A stretch of DNA of 64,000 bases, taken from the NCBI RefSeq assembly GCF_003721435.2, contig NZ_CP054585.1, forward strand, positions 1,860,001 through 1,924,000, written 5' to 3'. Positions 12,519 through 61,411 of this stretch are shown here, one piece after another (position 1 is the stretch's first letter; each line of letters opens with the position of its first letter). Source of the DNA: Halorubrum sp. CBA1229 (GTDB lineage Archaea > Halobacteriota > Halobacteria > Halobacteriales > Haloferacaceae). The notes beneath the pieces are model-generated. The model saw only the letters and a list, made by a program, of their open reading frames with translations, made no database searches and was not told where the DNA came from. The position numbers and the translations under genes are program-made.

Positions 12519-12921
12519 GCTATACGTCGCTTCCGAGGCGGTGAACACTTCCAAAGCCCCAGCCGCTCGGGTGTACGTCGTTGCTGACGGATCGACGGCG
12601 AACACTCCCAAAGCCCCAGCCGCTCGGGTGTACGTCGTTGCTGACGGATCGACGGCGAACACTCCCAAAGCCCCAGCCGCGAGGACGGCGCACGCTCGCT
12701 GCGCTCCTCAGTCGCTCGTTTCACTCGCTCCCTGCGGTGCTTACGTCGCCTGCGCCGTCCTCGCGACTGCCCCTTTGAGTCCCACCCGACCGCACCGCCC
12801 CGCACCTCACTCCTCCCCAGCCTCGTCGGACCGGCGCGGTCGCGCCGGTCCGACTCCCTCGCGCGCGCTGCTCGGCCGCGAATGCGGCCTCGCAGGCACG
12901 CGCCACCGCATTCATTTATAA
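12519..12921 (+). repeat. Interspersed structured element, copy 1
   Basis: Read on the plus strand, three tandem units carry CCAAAGCCCCAG at 12551, 12608 and 12665, exactly 57 bp apart. The first has a TATA-like CTATACG about 30 nt before it. Then come a perfect 15-bp long-range stem (12678-12692 pairing with 12751-12765) enclosing a variable part, the invariant CTGCCCCTTTGAGTCC box (about 12768-12783) and a 30-nt palindrome at 12825-12854 with one central mismatch. A terminal hairpin GGCCGC-GAAT-GCGGCC lies at 12874-12889 and ATTTATAA at 12914-12921. No coding pattern is kept between copies. It fills the gap between the zinc-ribbon gene and the monophosphatase gene. See the element findings. 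Confidence 0.85.
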
Positions 12922-23702: not shown

Positions 23703-24030
23703 ATTTATAAATAAACAGGGCGGTGGCGCGCGCCTCCGAGCGGCCGGAAGGCCGCGCGGAGCGCGTGCGAGGGAGTCGGACCGGCGCGGCCGCGCCGGTC
23801 CGACGAGGCTGGGGAGGTGTGAGGTGCGGTTGCGGTGCGGGCGGGACTCAAAGGGGCAGTCGCGAGGGCGAAGCACGCCGCAGCAAGCACTGGAAGGAGC
23901 GAACGAAGTGAGCGACTGAAGCGCGCAGCAAGGCGCGCGAGCCGTCGCGGCTGGGGCTTTGGAGGTCTTCACAGTCGATCCGCAGTCAGCTATTTATAAA
24001 CGAGGAGCTGGGGCTTTGGACGTATTCCCC
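23703..24030 (-). repeat. Interspersed structured element, copy 2
   Basis: The element reads on the minus strand. CCAAAGCCCCAG units end at 24019 and 23962, 57 bp apart. TTTATAAA at 23993-24000 is correctly placed upstream of the inner unit. Then come the variable region, the inverse of CTGCCCCTTTGAGTCC (about 23844-23859), a perfect 30-nt palindrome at 23775-23804, the terminal hairpin GCGGCC-GGAA-GGCCGC at 23740-23755, and ATTTATAAA at 23703-23711. The last box is 85 bp upstream of priS and could serve it. It occupies the divergent space between priS and the 48-residue gene. Confidence 0.85.
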
Positions 24031-25134: not shown

Positions 25135-25330
25135 GCCTCTCGCCCTCTTCTCAGCCTCTCGCCCTCTTCTCAGCCTCTCGCCCTCTTCTCAGCCTCTCGC
25201 CCTCTTCTCAGCCTCTCGCCCTCTTCTCAGCCTCTCGCCCTCTTCTCAGCCTCTCGCCCTCTTCTCAGCCTCTCGCCCTCTTCTCAGCCTCTCGCCCTCT
25301 TCTCAGCCTCTCGCCCTCTTCTCCGCCTCC
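25135..25330. repeat. 19-bp minisatellite, about ten units
   Basis: The unit CGCCCTCTTCTCAGCCTCT repeats head to tail from 25141 with identical copies to 25311, then a last diverged unit (CTCCGCCTC). One strand is almost entirely pyrimidine. It fills most of the 360-bp gap between padR and the aminotransferase gene (25058-25418) and ends about 60 bp before the latter's promoter (CTTTATTCC at 25389-25397). Confidence 0.95.
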
Positions 25331-29551: not shown

Positions 29552-30649
29552 ATGACGGACCCATCGCGGACGACAGGCGGCGACCGATCTCAGGGCACTC
29601 CCACCGACGGCTTCGGGCGACGGGAGTTCGTGGCGCTCGGCGCGGGCGTGGGCGCGACGATGCTCGCGGGCTGTGCCGGCGACGGGGGACTCGCGTCCGA
29701 CGGCTCGGACGGTTCGGACGGCTCGGACGGTTCGGACGGCTCGGACGGCTCCCAGACGCTCACCGGGAACTTCCGGCTCCTCATCAGCGACGCGCCGGCC
29801 GACATCGCCGACTTCGATGAGCTGAACGTCACGCTCGACGAGGCGCGGATCTTCGAGGCTCGGGACGACGAGGAAGAGGATGACGAGGAGGACGACGCGG
29901 AGACGGACGACGAGAACGACGCGGAGACGGACGACGAGAACGACGCGGAGACGGATGAAACGGACGACGCGGAGACCGACGACGGGTCGGATCAGACCGG
30001 CAACGAGACCGAGGTGGAGAGCGACTCCCCCAACGGGACCGCGGAGGAGGACGAGGAGACGGACGACGAGGACGAGGAGAACGAAGAGGACGCGGACGAC
30101 GAGGACGCGGATGACGAGGACGACCGCGGCTTCACCGTCGTCGACCTCGGCGGCGAGACCGTCGACCTCACGCAGGTGATCGGAGACGACGCGACGGCCG
30201 TGTTCGACGACGAGATCCCGGCGGGGAGCTACGAGAAGGTCGAGCTCGAGGTCTCCGCGGTCGAAGGGATCGTCGAGGGCGAGGCGGTCGACGTGAAGCT
30301 CCCGAGCGAGAAGCTCCAGATCACGAACGGGTTCGAGGTCACGCCCGACGAGCCCGTCAGCTTCGTCTTCGACATCAACGTCGTCAAGCGCGGCAAGAAC
30401 AACGGCTACATCCTCAAGCCGGTGATCTCCGGCAGCGGGGTCGCGGGCCGAGACGTCGACGTCAACGAGATCGACGACGATGCGGACGGGGACGACGAGG
30501 GTGATGACGGCGACGACGAGAGTGACGAGGACGAGAGTGACGAGGACGATTCCGACGAAGACGCGAACGAAACGGCGGACTCGGAGGACGACGGCGACGG
30601 AGCCACCGGAAACGAGACCGACGACGCCGAGAACGAGACCGCCGCCTGA
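29552..30649 (+). CDS. Tat lipoprotein with DUF4382 domain and long acidic runs
   Basis: The product has 365 residues. The signal GRREFVALGAGVGATMLAGC has twin Arg and a lipobox with Cys47, so it is exported folded and lipid-anchored outside. A six-fold GSD repeat follows. The DUF4382 domain begins GNFRLLISDAPADIADFDEL and resumes after an inserted acidic region of about 95 residues (Asp/Glu tandem repeats such as DDENDAET) at FTVVDLGGETVDLTQVIGDD. It ends FVFDINVVKRGKNNGYILKP. A second acidic tail of about 60 residues closes the protein. DUF4382 proteins are secreted with an unknown function, and the huge negative charge may bind cations. Confidence 0.9.
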   Translation: MTDPSRTTGGDRSQGTPTDGFGRREFVALGAGVGATMLAGCAGDGGLASDGSDGSDGSDGSDGSDGSQTLTGNFRLLISDAPADIADFDELNVTLDEARIFEARDDEEEDDEEDDAETDDENDAETDDENDAETDETDDAETDDGSDQTGNETEVESDSPNGTAEEDEETDDEDEENEEDADDEDADDEDDRGFTVVDLGGETVDLTQVIGDDATAVFDDEIPAGSYEKVELEVSAVEGIVEGEAVDVKLPSEKLQITNGFEVTPDEPVSFVFDINVVKRGKNNGYILKPVISGSGVAGRDVDVNEIDDDADGDDEGDDGDDESDEDESDEDDSDEDANETADSEDDGDGATGNETDDAENETAA

Positions 30650-30734
30650 AGCGACGACCGACCGCGAGAGGGTGACCCGCGTCCCCACTCGCCGACCGAC
30701 TCGCGCCTACTTTTCAAACGCGCCGCGATCCCGC

Positions 30735-32875: not shown

Positions 32876-34061
32876 CGGCCGCCTCCTGTCGGGTCCCCTC
32901 GTCGACCTCGGCCGCCTCGCGGGCGGCCGCGATCAGGTCGTCGGCGCCCCGGTCCGCTAAGTCCGCCGCGAACGACTCGGCGGCCTTCGCGTGCGACCGG
33001 ATCGGGAGGTCGCGGGTGTCGGCCACCTCCTCGGTGCCGTCGGTCGAGAGGACCCGGACGCGCGTGTGGACGTGCTCGCCCTGCACGAGCGCCGAGACGC
33101 CGATCGGCGCGACGCAGCCGCCGTTGAGCTCGCCGAGGATCGTGCGCTCGACGGTGACCGCCACCCGGGTCCGGGGGTGGTCGACCGCGGAGCGCACGTC
33201 CTCGATCACCTCGGGGTCAGTCGCGGTCACCGCGATGGCGCCCTGGCCGGCCGCGGGGACGAACTCCTCGCGCGGGAGCCGGGTCGTCGGGACGTCGTGG
33301 AACAGGTCGGAGCGCCGGAGCCCCGCCTCCGCGAGGACGATGGCGTCGTACTCCGTCTCCACCTTCCGCTCCATCGCCGAGCGCTCCAGGTCGGAGAGGG
33401 AGTCGAACCACTCCTCGACGGTGGTCTCGAACTCCTCGTCGACCTCGGGCTCGCCGCTCTCGGCGTCCGCGTCGGTCTCGCCGCTCTCGGCGTCGCCCTC
33501 GTCGCCCGCACCGCCCTCCTCGGCGGTCATCGCGCTGGCCTCGCCCGAGGCGATCAGCCGGCGCTCGTGTTCCGCCTGGAGGCCTGGCGCGAGCAGCTTC
33601 TCGATCCGAGTGTCGACGTTCCCCCGTAACGGCTCGACGACCAGGTCCGGGCGCGTGGCCTTGATCTGGGCGGTCCGCCGGAGCGAGCCGGTTCCCACGA
33701 CGGAGCCCGAGGGGAGGTCCTCGATCCCGAGCCCGTCGGGGTGGACGAACACGTCGCCGGAGGGCGCGCGCTCGGGGACGCCGGCGACCACCATATCGTC
33801 CATCTCCTCGGTCGGCACGTCCTTCAGCGAGTGGACGGCGAGGTCGGCGTCGCCGGCGAGCACCTCCTCGTCGAGCGAGCGGACGAAGGCGCCGGTCTTC
33901 CCGAGCCGGTGGATCAGCTCGTCGGGGATCTGGTCGCCGCGGGTCTCGACGCGGCGGAGCTCCACGTCGCGTCGGCGGCTCGACAGCGCGTCGCGGACGG
34001 TCCCGGCCTGCCGGAGGGCCAGGTCCGACCCGCGCGTGGCGAGCCTGAGCGTATCGGTCAT
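32868..34061 (-). CDS. hemC: Hydroxymethylbilane synthase (porphobilinogen deaminase)
   Basis: The product has 397 residues from MTDTLRLATRGSDLALRQAG. The conserved HSLKDVPTEE, GTGSLRRTAQIKATRPDL and RGNVDTRIEKL segments are present. LNGGCVAPIG carries the cysteine that binds the dipyrromethane cofactor. It joins four porphobilinogens into hydroxymethylbilane. An acidic insert of about 60 residues (AMTAEEGGAGDEGD onward, about 175-235) makes it longer than the usual roughly 310 residues. The start is set by family homology. TTCAAAAG about 25 nt upstream is a possible TATA box. First gene of the operon. Confidence 0.95.
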   Translation of the reverse strand: MTDTLRLATRGSDLALRQAGTVRDALSSRRRDVELRRVETRGDQIPDELIHRLGKTGAFVRSLDEEVLAGDADLAVHSLKDVPTEEMDDMVVAGVPERAPSGDVFVHPDGLGIEDLPSGSVVGTGSLRRTAQIKATRPDLVVEPLRGNVDTRIEKLLAPGLQAEHERRLIASGEASAMTAEEGGAGDEGDAESGETDADAESGEPEVDEEFETTVEEWFDSLSDLERSAMERKVETEYDAIVLAEAGLRRSDLFHDVPTTRLPREEFVPAAGQGAIAVTATDPEVIEDVRSAVDHPRTRVAVTVERTILGELNGGCVAPIGVSALVQGEHVHTRVRVLSTDGTEEVADTRDLPIRSHAKAAESFAADLADRGADDLIAAAREAAEVDEGTRQEAADE

Positions 34062-34146
34062 ACCCGACCGGAGGTCCCCCGCGTTCAAAAGGGCATTAGT
34101 TCGGGCGTCGCACCGGAACGCGGAGAACGAAACGTCTCGACGTGAG

Positions 34147-34606
34147 TATTTATAAACAACCCCGGCGTGCGCCTGCGAGCGGCCGTCAGGCCGCGAGCCA
34201 GCCCGCGAGGGAGTCGGACCGGCGCGGCCGCGCCGGTCCGACGAGGCTGGGGAGGCGTGAGGTGCGGTTGCTGTGCGGGGCGGGACTCAAAGGGGCAGCC
34301 GCGAGGGCGAAGCACACCGACGCAAGGACCGCAGGGAGCGAGCGGAGAGGGACCGGAGGTCCCTCTAGCAGCCGGCGCGAAGCGCCGGCGACACCGCGAG
34401 CGACTGAGGACCGCAGCGAGGTGCGCGAGCCGTCGCGGCTGGGGCTTTGGCGGTGTTCGTCGCACCGTCGACAGCAACGACGTATTGCCGAGCGGCTGGG
34501 GCTTTGGCGGTGTTCGTCGTACCGTCGACAGCAACGACGTATTGCCGAGCGGCTGGGGATTTGGAGGCGGTCACTCTGCTGACGACAGCGACCATTTATA
34601 TACACC
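34147..34606 (-). repeat. Interspersed structured element, copy 3
   Basis: The element reads on the minus strand and has three tandem units, with plus-strand CTGGGG motifs at 34439, 34496 and 34553, each 57 bp apart. The outermost has one T-for-C change (CCAAATCCCCAG) and a clear TATA box at about 34595-34603. The variable region carries two perfect hairpins, at 34346-34366 and 34371-34389 (GCCGGCGC-GAA-GCGCCGGC). Then come the CTGCCCCTTTGAGTCC box, a 30-nt perfect palindrome at 34213-34242, the terminal hairpin GCGGCC-GTCA-GGCCGC at 34179-34194, and TATTTATAAA at 34147-34156. It lies between the divergent hemC and sufS genes. Confidence 0.85.
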
Positions 34607-34679
34607 AGTTTCGATCCGAGCTATCCACAACACCTGCCGAACCGAAGACGTGTTAGTGCTCGGGGCCCAACTCGGCGTA

Positions 34680-35957
34680 ATGGGAGTTCAGGAGCAGTAC
34701 TCGTTCGACGTGGAGGCGCTCCGGGCCGATTTCCCCGTCCTCGACCGGAAGGTCGGCGGGGATCCGGAGTCGCCGGGTGAGGGGCCGGGCGACGACACCC
34801 CGCTCGTCTACCTCGACAACGCGGCGACCTCGCACACGCCGGACCAAGTCGTCGACGCGATCGCCGACTACTACCGGAGCTACAACGCCAACGTCCACCG
34901 CGGCATCCACCAGCTGAGCCAGGAAGCCTCCGTCGCCTACGAGGAGGCCCACGACACGGTCGCGGACTTCGTCGGCGCCGCGGGCCGCGAGGAGATCGTC
35001 TTCACCAAGAACACGACCGAGGCGATGAACCTCGTCGCCTACGCGTGGGGCCTCGAAGAGCTCGGCCCCGGGGACAACGTCGTCCTCACCGAGATGGAGC
35101 ACCACGCCTCGCTCGTCACGTGGCAGCAGATCGGCAAGCGGACCGGCGCCGACGTGCGCTTCATCGACGTCACCGACGAGGGGCGGCTCGACATGGACGA
35201 CGCCGCCGAACTGATCGACGACGACACGCAGATGGTGTCGGCGGTCCACGTCTCGAACACGCTCGGCACCATTAATCCGATAGCCGACCTCGCGGACCTC
35301 GCGCACGACCACGACGCGCTCATTTTCGCCGACGGCGCGCAGTCGGTGCCGAACCGCGCAGTCGACGTGAAAGCGCTCGGCGTCGACTTCTTCGCCTTCT
35401 CCGCGCACAAGATGTGCGGGCCGACCGGGATCGGCGCGCTGTACGGTCGCGAGGAACTCCTCGACTCCATGCAGCCGTACCTCTACGGCGGCGACATGAT
35501 CCGGCGCGTCTCCTTCCAGGACTCCACCTGGGAGGACCTGCCGTGGAAGTTCGAGGCCGGCACGCCCTCGATCGCGCAGGGGATCGGCTTCGCGGCGGCG
35601 ATCGAGTACTTAGAGGCGGTCGGGATGGACCGGGTCGAGGCCCACGAGGACCTGCTCGCCGAGTACGCGTACGACGAGCTGCAGGCGCTCGGCGGCGTGG
35701 AGATCTACGGGCCGCCCGGCGACGACCGCGGCGGGCTCGTCGCGTTCAACGTCGAGGGCGTCCACGCGCACGACCTCTCCAGCATCCTCAACGACTACGG
35801 GATCGCGATCCGCGCCGGCGACCACTGCACCCAGCCGCTCCACGACGAGCTGGGGGTCGCCGCCACCGCGCGCGCCTCCTTCTACCTCTACAACACCGTC
35901 GAGGAGGTCGACGCCCTCGTCGAGGCCGTCGGCGAGGCGCGCGACCTGTTCGCCTGA
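34680..35957 (+). CDS. sufS: Cysteine desulfurase SufS
   Basis: The product has 425 residues from MGVQEQYSFDVEALRADFPV. PLP motifs are YLDNAATSHTP, LTEMEHHASLVTW, FADGAQSVPN and the Schiff-base lysine in FSAHKMCGPTG (Lys244). Cys383 in RAGDHCTQPLH is the residue that takes the persulfide, in the short-loop group II (SufS) setting. It frees sulfur from cysteine for Fe-S assembly, with the scaffold encoded 1 kb downstream. The open frame upstream to 34167 is element copy 3 and is not part of the protein. The nearest strong TATA (in the element's outer unit) is about 80 bp upstream, so sufS may be transcribed from the element's edge. Confidence 0.95.
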   Translation: MGVQEQYSFDVEALRADFPVLDRKVGGDPESPGEGPGDDTPLVYLDNAATSHTPDQVVDAIADYYRSYNANVHRGIHQLSQEASVAYEEAHDTVADFVGAAGREEIVFTKNTTEAMNLVAYAWGLEELGPGDNVVLTEMEHHASLVTWQQIGKRTGADVRFIDVTDEGRLDMDDAAELIDDDTQMVSAVHVSNTLGTINPIADLADLAHDHDALIFADGAQSVPNRAVDVKALGVDFFAFSAHKMCGPTGIGALYGREELLDSMQPYLYGGDMIRRVSFQDSTWEDLPWKFEAGTPSIAQGIGFAAAIEYLEAVGMDRVEAHEDLLAEYAYDELQALGGVEIYGPPGDDRGGLVAFNVEGVHAHDLSSILNDYGIAIRAGDHCTQPLHDELGVAATARASFYLYNTVEEVDALVEAVGEARDLFA

Positions 35958-44455: not shown

Positions 44456-46761
44456 TGGACTCCCACCGCGCCGCGTTCGTCGCCGAGGCCGAGGACGGGA
44501 TCACAGACCTCAACAACGCCCTGCTCGCCCTCGAGGCGGATCCCGAGGACGCCGAGGCGATGGACGACGTGTTCCGCGTCGCCCACACGCTGAAGGGGAA
44601 CGCCGCGGCGATGGGGTACGACGACGTCTCCGACTTCGGGCACGCCTTAGAGGACTTACTCGACGCGGTCCGGCAGGGCGACCGCGAGGTGACGCCGGAG
44701 CTGATGGACCTCTTGTTCGAGGGCGTCGACACCGTCGAAGCGATGGTCGCGGAGATCGCCGATACCGGCGAGGTGTCGACCGACCCGTCGGATCTGGAGG
44801 GCCGCCTCCGCGAGATGGAGGAGCACGGAACCGTCGGTGGCGACTCGGCGGACGACGGGTCCGCTGGAGACACCGAGGACGAGACGACCGACGGCGAGGG
44901 GGGCGCCGCCGCCGACAGTAACGACGAGCCTGACGCCGCCGACACAGCGGACGAGCCCGACGCCGATGTCTCCGTCCCCGACCTCCCCGCGGCCGCCGCG
45001 GCGCTCGACGCCCCGGTCGTGTACGCCGACGTGACGGTCGGCGAGACGGCGATGGCCGGCGTCGACGCCGCGCTCGTCCTCCAGGCGCTCGACGGGCAGT
45101 TCGACGGCCACGTCACCGATCCGGACCCGGACGCGCTGGAGGACGGCGAGTACGACGAGGGGTTCGACGCCTTCGTCTCCGGCGCCGACCCCGACGTGGT
45201 CGCGGAGGGACTCGGCGCGCTCACGCAGGTCGAGTCGATCGCGACGGCGCTCGTCGGTGACGACGGGGAGTCGTCCGACGCGTCCGACGAGAGCGCCGCT
45301 GCTGATGAGGAACCGGACGCGGGGAGCGAGGGCGAGGAGCCGGACTCCGTCGAGGAACGGGCCGAGGAGTTCGAGCCCGCTGACCCGGAGGCTGTCGAGG
45401 AGGACGGCGCCGAGGACGACGAGACCGAGCCGGACGAGACCGATTCGGAGAGCCCCGACGAGGCCGATTCGGAGAGCCCCGACAACCAGTCAGGCTCGCC
45501 GTCCGGGAAGGGCGACCGCGACGAGATCAAGTCGATCCGGGTCGACGTCGACCAGGTCGACGAGCTGTACGGGCTCGTCGAGCAGCTGGTGACGAGCCGG
45601 ATCAAGCTCCGTCGGGAGCTGGAGGAGGCGGACGCCGAGTCGGACGCCTTAGACGAGCTCGACAAGCTCGCCTCCAGCCTGCAGGACACCGCGATGGACA
45701 TGCGGCTCATCCCGTTCTCGCAGGTGTCCGACTCCTTCCCGCGGCTCGTCCGCGACATCTCGCGGGACCTCGACAAGCGGATCGACTTCGAGATCGAGGG
45801 CGACGACGTCGAGCTCGACCGGACGATCCTGACGGAGATGCGCGACCCGCTCGTGCACGTCCTGCGGAACGCGGTCGACCATGGGATCGAATCGCCCGAG
45901 GAGCGCGAGGCCGCCGGTAAGGACCCGACCGGGCACGTCAGGCTCACGGCCGAGCGCGAGCGCGACCATGTGATCATCGAGGTCGCCGACGACGGCGGCG
46001 GGCTCGACCCGGACCAGCTCCGCGAGAAGGCGGTCGACGAGGGCGTCAAGAGCCGCGAGGCCGTCGAGGCGATGGAGGACGACGAGGTGTACGACCTCGT
46101 CTTCCACCCCGGCTTCTCCACCGCGGAGGAGGTCACCGACGTCTCCGGGCGCGGCGTCGGGATGGACGTTGTCAGGACCACCGCCCGCGACCTCGACGGC
46201 TCCGTCGCGGTCGAGAGCGAGCCGGGCGAGGGGACCACGGTGCGGTTCCGGCTCCCGGTCACCGTCGCCATCGTGAAGGTGATGTTCGTCGACGTCGGCG
46301 GCACGGAGTACGGCATCCCGATCAAGTCGATCGCGGAGGTCGCCCGCGCCGACGACGTGGAGGAGGTCCACGGCGACGAGATCGTCCGCCACGAGGACGA
46401 CCTGTACCCCGTGATCCGGCTGAACGAACGGCTCGCGGAGAGCGACGCCGCGGCGGCCGGGTCGGGCGTCGGCGGATCCGCGGAAGGCGACGCCGCCGCC
46501 GGCGACGCCGCCCCGGAGGGCGCCTCGCCGCCCGACGCCGAGGCCGCGACGACCGACGGCGGCGTCGCCGACGAGGGGATGCTCGTGCGGATCCGCGAAG
46601 AGACGCGCCAGGTCGCGCTCCACTGCGACGCCGTCCTCGATCAGGAGGAAGTGGTGGTGAAACCGCTCGACGGCCCGCTGTCGGGGACGCCGGGACTCAG
46701 CGGCACGGCCGTCCTCGGCGACGGCGACGTCGTGGCCGTGCTCGACGTGGTGAGCCTATGA
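44455..46761 (+). CDS. cheA: Chemotaxis histidine kinase CheA
   Basis: The product has 768 residues. The N-terminal Hpt domain has His44 in VAHTLKGNAAAMGY. There is a P2-like region (about 180-265), then a long acidic linker that includes the DNA-repeat segment DEADSESPD. The dimerisation helices are KSIRVDVDQVDELYGLVEQL onward. The HATPase has LRNAVDHGIESPEER (N box), ADDGGGLD (G1) and GRGVGMDVV (G2). The CheW-like P5 domain runs from about 600 with an Ala/Gly/Asp insert in its middle. It phosphorylates CheB and CheY. No cheY gene is in the window. It is coupled to cheR by a 4-bp overlap. Confidence 0.97.
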   Translation: MDSHRAAFVAEAEDGITDLNNALLALEADPEDAEAMDDVFRVAHTLKGNAAAMGYDDVSDFGHALEDLLDAVRQGDREVTPELMDLLFEGVDTVEAMVAEIADTGEVSTDPSDLEGRLREMEEHGTVGGDSADDGSAGDTEDETTDGEGGAAADSNDEPDAADTADEPDADVSVPDLPAAAAALDAPVVYADVTVGETAMAGVDAALVLQALDGQFDGHVTDPDPDALEDGEYDEGFDAFVSGADPDVVAEGLGALTQVESIATALVGDDGESSDASDESAAADEEPDAGSEGEEPDSVEERAEEFEPADPEAVEEDGAEDDETEPDETDSESPDEADSESPDNQSGSPSGKGDRDEIKSIRVDVDQVDELYGLVEQLVTSRIKLRRELEEADAESDALDELDKLASSLQDTAMDMRLIPFSQVSDSFPRLVRDISRDLDKRIDFEIEGDDVELDRTILTEMRDPLVHVLRNAVDHGIESPEEREAAGKDPTGHVRLTAERERDHVIIEVADDGGGLDPDQLREKAVDEGVKSREAVEAMEDDEVYDLVFHPGFSTAEEVTDVSGRGVGMDVVRTTARDLDGSVAVESEPGEGTTVRFRLPVTVAIVKVMFVDVGGTEYGIPIKSIAEVARADDVEEVHGDEIVRHEDDLYPVIRLNERLAESDAAAAGSGVGGSAEGDAAAGDAAPEGASPPDAEAATTDGGVADEGMLVRIREETRQVALHCDAVLDQEEVVVKPLDGPLSGTPGLSGTAVLGDGDVVAVLDVVSL

Positions 46762-52262: not shown

Positions 52263-53371
52263 GCGGGCGCGACGCCGGCGACTGGGAGGAGGAGGTCGCG
52301 GAGTGGGACGAGGAGGTCTCCGAGTGGGAGGGGTCGAACGCCGCCGACGACCCCGACACCGCCGACGACTCCGGTCCCGTCGAGGAGGACCCCGACCTCG
52401 CGCCCGAGGAGTCGAGCCGCGTGCCGAAGGTGATCGCCGCCGGCCACATCAACTGGGACGTGACGATCCACGTCGACCGGCTCCCCGAGCCGGACGGAGA
52501 GACCCGGATCGAGCGGCTCGAGCAGTCCGGGGGTGGCAGCGCCGCGAACGTCGCGGTCGGGCTCGTCGACCTCGGCGGCCAGTCGGTCGTTTACGGGAGC
52601 GTCGGCGGCGACGAGTCGGGCGCGCTCGCGCTCCGCGAGCTGGCGAGCGCCGGCGTGGACCCCGGACAGGTGCTCGTCGACGCCGGCGAGCCCACCTCGG
52701 TGAAGTACGTGATCGTCGACGGCGGCGGCGAGCTCCTCATGCTCGCCAACGACGGCGCCAACGAGTCGTTCACCGCGGCCGGGCTCGACCGCGACACCCT
52801 GACGGCGGCCGACCACCTCCACCTCACTGGTCAGCAGCCGGAGACGGCGGCAGCGCTGGCGACCGCGGCGGGGGAGGCGGGCGCGACCCGCAGCTTCGAC
52901 CCCGGCCGGCGCGTCGGCGACCGGGAGTTCGACGCCGCGCTCCACGCGACCGACGTGCTCTTTCTAAACTCTCGCGAGGCCGACGCCCTCGCGGACTCGA
53001 CCGACATCGACCCGTGGGAGCCCGAGGACCGCGTCGTCGCGATCAAGCTCGGGAGCGAGGGCGCGACGATCCGAACCCCCCACGGCGACGTCTCTCACCC
53101 CGGCTTCGACGTCGATCCCGTCGACACGGCCGGCGCGGGCGACGCGTTCGCGGCCGGGTTCCTCGGCGCGGCCCTCCGCGAGCCCGAGATCGTCGACGGC
53201 GGGTTCTCGCACGACCCGCGCGACTACCAGGTCCCGCTGCTCGTCGGCAACGCCTGCGGCGCGATCGCGGCCGAGACGGTGACCGCCCGCGCGGACCTCT
53301 CGTGGGACCGGATCCGCGAGACGATGGGCGAGTCGCCCGAGACGGACCTGCTGATCGAAGTCCGCGTGTAG
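52259..53371 (+). CDS. PfkB-family sugar kinase, candidate ribose-1-phosphate kinase
   Basis: The product has 370 residues. After an acidic N-terminal extension of about 57 residues, the PfkB fold starts at KVIAAGHINWDVTIHVDRLP. SGGGSAANVAVGLVDLGGQS is signature 1, and DTAGAGDAFAAGFLGA carries the anion hole and catalytic Asp. By context it phosphorylates ribose-1-phosphate to ribose-1,5-bisphosphate for the isomerase. Other nucleoside or sugar substrates are possible from sequence alone. The last residues IEVRV and the stop lie in the first unit of an 18-bp tandem repeat that copies the stop codon. Confidence 0.87.
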   Translation: MSGRDAGDWEEEVAEWDEEVSEWEGSNAADDPDTADDSGPVEEDPDLAPEESSRVPKVIAAGHINWDVTIHVDRLPEPDGETRIERLEQSGGGSAANVAVGLVDLGGQSVVYGSVGGDESGALALRELASAGVDPGQVLVDAGEPTSVKYVIVDGGGELLMLANDGANESFTAAGLDRDTLTAADHLHLTGQQPETAAALATAAGEAGATRSFDPGRRVGDREFDAALHATDVLFLNSREADALADSTDIDPWEPEDRVVAIKLGSEGATIRTPHGDVSHPGFDVDPVDTAGAGDAFAAGFLGAALREPEIVDGGFSHDPRDYQVPLLVGNACGAIAAETVTARADLSWDRIRETMGESPETDLLIEVRV

Positions 53372-53479
53372 GTCGAAGTCCGCGTGTAGGTCGAAGTCCG
53401 CGTGTAGGTCGAAGTCCGCGTGTAGGTCGAAGTCCGCGTGTAGGTCGAAGTCCGCGTGTAGGTCGAAGTCCGCGTGTAG
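53355..53479 (+). repeat. 18-bp tandem repeat of the kinase gene's end, seven copies
   Basis: TCGAAGTCCGCGTGTAG recurs seven times at 18-bp spacing (starts 53355, 53373, 53391 and so on to 53463). The first copy encodes the C-terminus of the kinase with its TAG. Because 18 is a multiple of three, all seven TAG stops are in the kinase frame. It fills the space to the convergent lipoprotein gene. Confidence 0.95.
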
Positions 53480-53499
53480 GCGTTCGGACCGGCCCGCGA

Positions 53500-61017: not shown

Positions 61018-61411
61018 TATAAGTCGTTGCTGTCGGTGACGTAGAGACCACCTCCAAAGCCCCAGTCGCTCGGTTATAAACGATTGAATACAGATCGGCG
61101 GTGAATACCTCCAAAGCCCCAGTCGCGAGGACTCGCGTGACTCGCTGCGCTCCTCGGTCGCTCACTCCGTTCGCTCTCTGCGGTGTCGCCGGCGGCTTTG
61201 CCGCCGGCTGCCCGTGGCGCGTAGCGCCACGCTGCTTGCGTCGTCAGGCTTCGTCCTCGCGACTGCCCCTTTGAGTCCCACCCGACTGCACCGCACAGCA
61301 CCTCACACCTCCCCAGCCTCGTCGGACCGGCGCGGCCGCGCCGGTCCGACTCCCTCGCGCGCACTCCTCGCGCCCTGCGGGCGCTCGGAGGCGCGCGCCA
61401 ACCGCATTATT
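61018..61411 (+). repeat. Interspersed structured element, copy 4
   Basis: The element reads on the plus strand. Two units have TTTATAAG/TTATAAAC boxes at 61018 and 61075, each 36 nt before CCAAAGCCCCAG at 61054 and 61111, so the whole unit repeats at 57 bp. Then come a 9-bp long-range stem (61124-61132 with 61253-61261), two perfect variable hairpins, GCCGGCGGC-TTT-GCCGCCGGC (61188-61208) and GTGGCGC-GTA-GCGCCAC (61214-61230), and the CTGCCCCTTTGAGTCC box at 61263. A perfect 30-nt palindrome at 61321-61350 and the terminal hairpin GCGCCC-TGC-GGGCGC at 61370-61384 follow. The distal TATA of the other copies is degraded here (TTATTCGG). It sits between rpoF and the eIF2B-like gene. Confidence 0.85.

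Follow-up and report, generated by a model that had tools for sequence, protein, structure and literature searches.

The 30-nt palindrome that occurs four times in the window (the whole 64,000-nt stretch of Halorubrum sp. CBA1229 DNA analysed here) is one interchangeable cassette, or allele, of a variable hairpin, H2, in a non-coding dispersed element present in about 100 copies per chromosome. The element is about 250-450 nt long and intergenic, and consists of three hairpins with covarying stems, connected by near-invariant linkers. Comparison with related species shows that it holds its site and orientation, the hairpins evidently being replaced whole and independently of each other. In our estimation there is a probability of about 55% that this dispersed element is selected as a strand-specific single-stranded fold, probably RNA, whose arms are swapped by ectopic recombination.

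Results

The palindrome and its alleles

As the initial annotation had described, the palindrome is exact at 23775-23804, 34213-34242 and 61321-61350 and carries a single, central mismatch at 12825-12854. These four matches compare with none in each of 100 dinucleotide-preserving shuffles of the window. The flanks reported for it, which read CCCCAGCCTC and TCCCTCGC on the plus strand in the 12.8- and 61.3-kb copies, correspond to the linkers GAGGCTGGGG and GCGAGGGA in reverse complement, and these linkers flank the palindrome at all four window copies. Across the genome, which comprises 3.58 Mb in two contigs, it was found at 12 places with up to three mismatches, all on contig 1, and direct reading of the H2 slot gave a 13th copy with a loop that differs by four bases. 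The genome-wide check for palindromes outside the element, which had been suggested earlier, found an element linker adjoining every one of the 13 copies.

The 26 stem bases are identical in the 13 copies, that is, the 13-bp stem is invariant, and all differences are confined to the central four bases, which take seven forms (GGCC in six copies, AGCC in two, and CGCG, AACC, GGTC, GACC and ACTT in one each). As the stem is fixed and the centre variable, the perfect symmetry stems from loop sequences that happen to be self-complementary, and what this allele conserves is a stem of 13 bp capped by a 4-nt loop, with a predicted RNA folding energy of -29 kcal/mol. The palindrome had been considered the best-conserved part of the element; in fact it is carried by 13 of the 93 readable elements of this genome, and the conserved part is the adjoining linkers. 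Bounded by GAGGGA and GAGGYTGGGGAGGNNTGAGG, the H2 slot holds hairpins of unrelated sequence in other copies, such as GTCGGTGGTCC..GGACCACCGAC, GTCGCTGGCGCC..GGCGCCAGCGAC and CGCGGTGAGCGC..GCGCGAACCGC, among others, which retain a stem. One further H2 cassette, GTCGGCCGGCGCTTATAAGCGCCGGCCGAC, seen in two other species (loci L375 and L376), has TTATAA at its centre.

Copies with the palindrome are clustered, being found in 7 of 12 elements between 1.72 and 1.97 Mb against 6 of 81 elsewhere (Fisher p = 1e-4, the region having been picked post hoc). When every group of similar cassettes was counted, near pairs were only modestly in excess (43 against 30.2 expected, matched in 71 of 5000 permutations), and without the palindrome cassettes it was not significant (25 against 22.3). 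Local spreading of cassettes as a general rule was thus dropped.

Architecture of the element

The element runs in the order TATA-like motif, H1, GAGGGA, H2, 20-nt linker, spacer, H3 and tail units. In the 34.2-kb copy, on the plus strand, the TATA-like motif TTTATA is at 34149-34154 of the 5' edge, and H1 is at 34164-34206, bounds that are approximate and derive from the family alignment A1 and pair counts. The H1/H2 junction GAGGGA (34207-34212) does not vary among the 60 A1 rows, which were picked partly by GAGGGA, and is followed by H2 (34213-34242, loop GGCC) and by the conserved linker GAGGCTGGGGAGGCGTGAGG (34243-34262), the signature of the element. The 5' side of H3, GGGACTCAAAGGGGC, lies at 34282-34296, with its CAAAG paired to CTTTG; the long-range H3 stem, closed by GGCTGGGGCTTTGG, spans 34294-34450 and in this copy contains extra inserted hairpins. 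The tail (34435-34605) has three 57-nt units, the last ending near TTTATA.

The 23.8-kb copy, also on the plus strand, has H1 at 23722-23768, the palindrome at 23775-23804, the linker at 23805-23824, the H3 block at 23843-23857 and the tail at 23947-24003. Two copies are on the minus strand: one has H1 at 12861-12907, H2 at 12825-12854 (loop GACC on the element strand), the linker at 12805-12824, the block at 12769-12783 and the tail at 12539-12680; the other has H1 at 61357-61403, H2 at 61321-61350, the linker at 61301-61320, the block at 61265-61279 and a tail from about 61042.

H1 is built of an outer helix, a bulge, a 4-bp inner helix, a tandem GA/GA internal loop (present in 57 and 56 of 60 alignment rows at its two positions) and an apical helix. 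H3 is opened by CAAAG-GGG-C and closed by G-GGG-CTTTG, a partner having been found for 62 of 73 blocks. Among the 85 tail unit spacings listed, 69 are of 57 nt and 11 of 54 nt, in arrays of one to five units. Extra hairpins are inserted into the H1, H2 or H3 arms of some copies. The TATA-like motif begins about 17 nt before H1 and is enriched (60 of the 71 elements with a readable H1 start, out of 98, against 36 of 665 background 45-mers). TTTATA motifs are found at both element edges, where the available empty site is not clean enough to separate a target duplication from element sequence.

The window contains other repeats as well: a tandem array of 10.3 copies of the 19-nt unit GCCTCTCGCCCTCTTCTCA at 25135-25329 (99% matches), near which the alignment to the sister species breaks; seven perfect copies of the 18-nt unit TCGAAGTCCGCGTGTAGG at 53355-53480; and a repetitive GAC/GAG-rich stretch at 29836-30650 that by eye would read as an Asp-/Glu-rich protein.

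Copy number and genomic setting

The linker GAGGYTGGGGAGGNNTGAGG has 106 matches in the genome at up to three mismatches (65 forward and 41 reverse), against four for a reversed-pattern control, and all of the 100 places listed are on contig 1. The H3 block has 91 matches, again all on contig 1; this contig makes up 89.8% of the genome, and the probability that contig 2 would have no H3 block by chance is about 6e-5. All 96 copies of the H3 block for which gene context was called lie in gaps between genes predicted by a simple gene caller, and none inside a gene. Convergent gaps make up 33 of 97 element gaps and 11 of 133 element-free gaps of the same fetched stretches (p = 1e-6), and divergent gaps are avoided. 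Between tandem genes the element has the same orientation as its neighbours in 19 cases and the opposite in 27, with no fixed relation. A replication-strand bias of orientation was rejected, with 61 elements on the plus and 37 on the minus strand (n = 98) falling into 47 runs, compared with 47.1 expected by chance.

Covariation and strand asymmetry

From 119 distinct H1-to-linker sequences of this genome and one relative, the 60 simple-hairpin sequences were aligned (A1), longer or unreadable ones being excluded. Predicted pairs were formed in 88.3% of cells, against 74.9% in shuffled and 23-49% in slid controls, and double changes were seen in 181 cells against 65 in shuffles, none of 500 shuffles being as high. 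A second alignment (A2) of 72 matches from 87 loci, other genera included, gave 93.3% paired cells against 69.3% shuffled and 354 double-change cells against 96; it was made with the A1-derived model and so leans towards it. In H3, 785 of 930 cells were Watson-Crick pairs, the shuffle maximum being 624. Of the seven pairs in the apparent H1 outer helix, no more than one or two show double changes.

The two strands are not equivalent. Stem mismatches were G.T in 50 cases and A.C in six (11 against 3 when distinct sequence contexts were counted once each, p = 0.057), and across genera GU and AC in 51 and 15. Loops of 3-5 nt were G..A in 69 cases and T..C in 10, many being of GNA and GNNA and few of GNRA or UNCG type. 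The element folds better than its shuffles both as RNA (z = -5.6) and as DNA (z = -4.0). The excess of G.T over A.C and of G..A over T..C indicates that one of the two strands acts in single-stranded form, which would fit RNA or single-stranded DNA alike. Single-stranded DNA, too, tolerates G.T better than A.C, and GNA and GNNA loops suit DNA hairpins at least as well as RNA.

Sites are kept and hairpins are exchanged

The 98 elements of this genome were compared with 72 fetched from a sister species (76 linker matches there), whose DNA is about 87% identical in the best syntenic stretch. After two neighbour cross-matches had been dropped, 52 of the 98 had a sister partner with both flanks matching and in the same orientation. 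H2 was readable in 41 of these same-site pairs: five were alike (edit distance up to 0.15) and 33 differed by more than 0.3, with a mean distance of 0.39 against 0.42 for random pairs. In 36 of the 41 pairs the H2 of a paralogue in the same genome was closer than that of the orthologue, and all four window palindromes were replaced in the sister species. The difference of H2 at 33 of 41 shared sites suggests that cassettes are exchanged among loci. Single sites show the independence of the arms: the element at 616744 had an H1 distance of 0.01 and an H2 distance of 0.37, and that at 976441 an H2 distance of 0.03 and an H1 distance of 0.32. H3 is absent from the 34.2-kb-site copies in Halorubrum sp. 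Boch-26 (where a window protein has a 96% identical counterpart) and, judged by an alignment gap, in the sister species.

At one further site, examined in 15 other species, seven had a full element between the same flanks, one a remnant and seven none, with six of the 15 counted as empty sites; two of the seven with a full element (genomes G198 and G227) had H2 in common and not H1. Filled and empty versions of this site thus occur between species, with flanks too diverged to fix the junction. At a site that is filled in other species (L372), a stretch of about 620 nt in the close relative lacks a full element and, by eye, apparently holds a small reading frame.

Distribution in haloarchaea

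The H3 block had 7 to 178 matches in 43 of 46 Halorubrum genomes, and one weak match each in 4 of 345 other genomes of the class. With a covariance model (E <= 1e-4, at most 10 candidates being scored per genome) the family was detected in all 46 Halorubrum genomes and in 51 of the 345 others. A deeper search of 12 of these 51, from nine genera, gave one genome with 52 matches at E <= 1e-5, and 30 loci read from other genera had the same linker pattern. The Halorubrum salinarum plasmid NZ_CP053942.1 has a match to the H1-H2-linker region at 45159-45297, indicating that within Halorubrum the element is not strictly chromosomal.

A viral or plasmid origin was considered and rejected: no matches were found in 50,697 phage records, no viral contig had the linker or the palindrome stem, and haloarchaeal plasmid matches were weak.

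Discussion

Three functions had been proposed for the palindrome, a terminator-like stem, a site for a dimeric protein and a site of cruciform extrusion, and only the stem-loop itself, with its invariant 13-bp stem and variation limited to the loop, was borne out. That the hairpin acts as an intrinsic terminator or in 3'-end processing for the neighbouring genes is very unlikely. Its stability and the enrichment in convergent gaps would suit this role; however, the sequence directly after the H2 stem is GAGGCTGGGG, which has no T-run and hence is not an intrinsic terminator, a search for a stem plus T-run found no match in 33900-34800, and orientation relative to tandem neighbours is not fixed. 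Even less probable is that the palindrome is bound as DNA by a dimeric protein. Seven of the 13 copies (six with GGCC and one with CGCG) have perfect two-fold symmetry, but the centre varies freely and asymmetrically, and the slot is filled by unrelated hairpins both elsewhere in this genome and at the corresponding sites of the sister species, which makes a sequence-specific dimer site unlikely. Cruciform extrusion alone leaves the strand asymmetry unexplained, and hairpins in single-stranded DNA are still compatible with the data. A Shine-Dalgarno decoy, suggested by GGAGGYG in the linker and GGAGGTG in the tail, was rejected, as the Y position varies and the tail motif is missing in other genera. 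A G-quadruplex, suggested by repeated GGGG runs, was also set aside; in two copies (143155 and 830837) one of these runs is replaced by CCCC, and the sequences tested in a G-quadruplex paper were from Hadesarchaea.

More serious alternatives concern what kind of single strand is folded and whether the host benefits from it. The fold could work as single-stranded DNA, for example in the lagging-strand template, in which case the element would be structured DNA, or DNA that was once mobile, comparable to PATE or REP. The many GNA and GNNA loops in G..A orientation, the DNA fold that beats its shuffles, the preference for convergent gaps and the existence of one Y1 transposase gene in the genome agree with this idea. 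We nevertheless regard it as rather unlikely, considering that the single TnpA locus compared (L363) had no blastn match to the 98 elements at E 1e-3, that orientation along the chromosome has no run structure, and that positions are retained across species. The sole Y1 (IS200-type, Pfam PF01797) match in the genome is on contig 1 at 1024074-1024436, about 4 kb from an element. It is possible, though we would not call it probable, that the element is the selfish remnant of a non-autonomous repeat, which spread in the past, does nothing for the host, and now persists and stays homogeneous solely through recombination among its copies; such a relic could fold as RNA or as DNA. The widely varying copy number in Halorubrum, the empty sites and the preference for convergent over divergent gaps are all in line with such a history, while the compensatory stem changes across genera and the almost invariant linker exceed what neutral decay would leave. 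About equally tentative is the proposal that the copies constitute a haloarchaeal family of genes for structured non-coding RNA, numbering about 100 per chromosome in the genus, in which fold and linkers would be selected and arms diversified by shuffling between fixed loci, each locus having its own combination.

In the reading that we prefer, selection would act on a strand-specific fold of a single strand, most probably RNA; the linkers would be the part that is recognised, and the stems would serve as spacers or as a scaffold. The short linker homology may let arms be copied between loci, either by conversion or by template switching at forks stalled at hairpins. The weakest step would be that the RNA serves as a scaffold or decoy for a putative protein binding the GGYTGGGGAGGNNNGAGG linker. 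A weak point is also found at the 5' edge: archaeal transcription usually starts about 26 nt downstream of the TATA centre, so with this motif about 17 nt before H1 the usual start would fall inside the H1 5' arm, a spacing at odds with transcription from a point before H1. The likeness of linkers within one genome could result from conversion-driven homogenisation without selection; their conservation across genera argues against homogenisation alone.

The element resembles several known repeats in lifestyle, but lacks or does not clearly show the tested features that define them. REP sequences are likewise high-copy palindromes outside genes, and reportedly have a tetranucleotide tag, GTAG or CGTC, constant at one palindrome end. 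In contrast, H2 alleles start with GTC, CGC, GCC or GGC, among others, with no common tag, and the haloarchaeal element is far longer and has three hairpins. Repeats of organelles, such as the RHE of sponges and the palindromic repeats of Volvox, also form hairpins and are said to spread apparently as selfish DNA; here, however, the hairpins occupy fixed slots of a conserved larger fold. The haloarchaeal palindrome-associated transposable elements (PATE) are described as too short to encode a transposase (PMC3119063), with palindromes near both termini that are related to IS605-type ends, and with strain-specific insertions that indicate mobility. According to the same text they are likewise non-coding, of similar length, heterogeneous in their many copies and palindromic, with extra repeats inserted into hairpins and core deletions between direct repeats (PMC3119063). 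Unlike PATE as described there, our element has internal, swapped palindromes, keeps its positions between species and has stems that covary across genera. The BOX repeats of Streptococcus pneumoniae are also small, dispersed and extensively structured, have a low current insertion rate and are sometimes transcribed (PMC3049150); they differ in belonging to another domain of life, and in the haloarchaeal element hairpin arms are exchanged between loci. The multi-helix fold with covariation is what Rfam structured RNAs show, yet none of 4227 Rfam families scored above its gathering score in the 64-kb window, and at five element loci matches were far below that score only.

Dispersed structured repeats are common, but for one that keeps its place and orientation while whole hairpins swap we found no description in the literature searched. 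This search took in few subscription papers and parts of PMC7002113, PMC2841640, PMC7565180, PMC11078007, PMC10544981, PMC3119063, PMC10927574 and PMC2864571.

Taken as a set, the elements are a natural experiment on hairpin recombination in an archaeon that is polyploid. The covariance model finds the family in 25 of the 86 haloarchaeal genera sampled, 24 of them besides Halorubrum. If transcribed, the elements would make up a structured RNA family of very high copy number in these cells, and one that represents a gap in Rfam.
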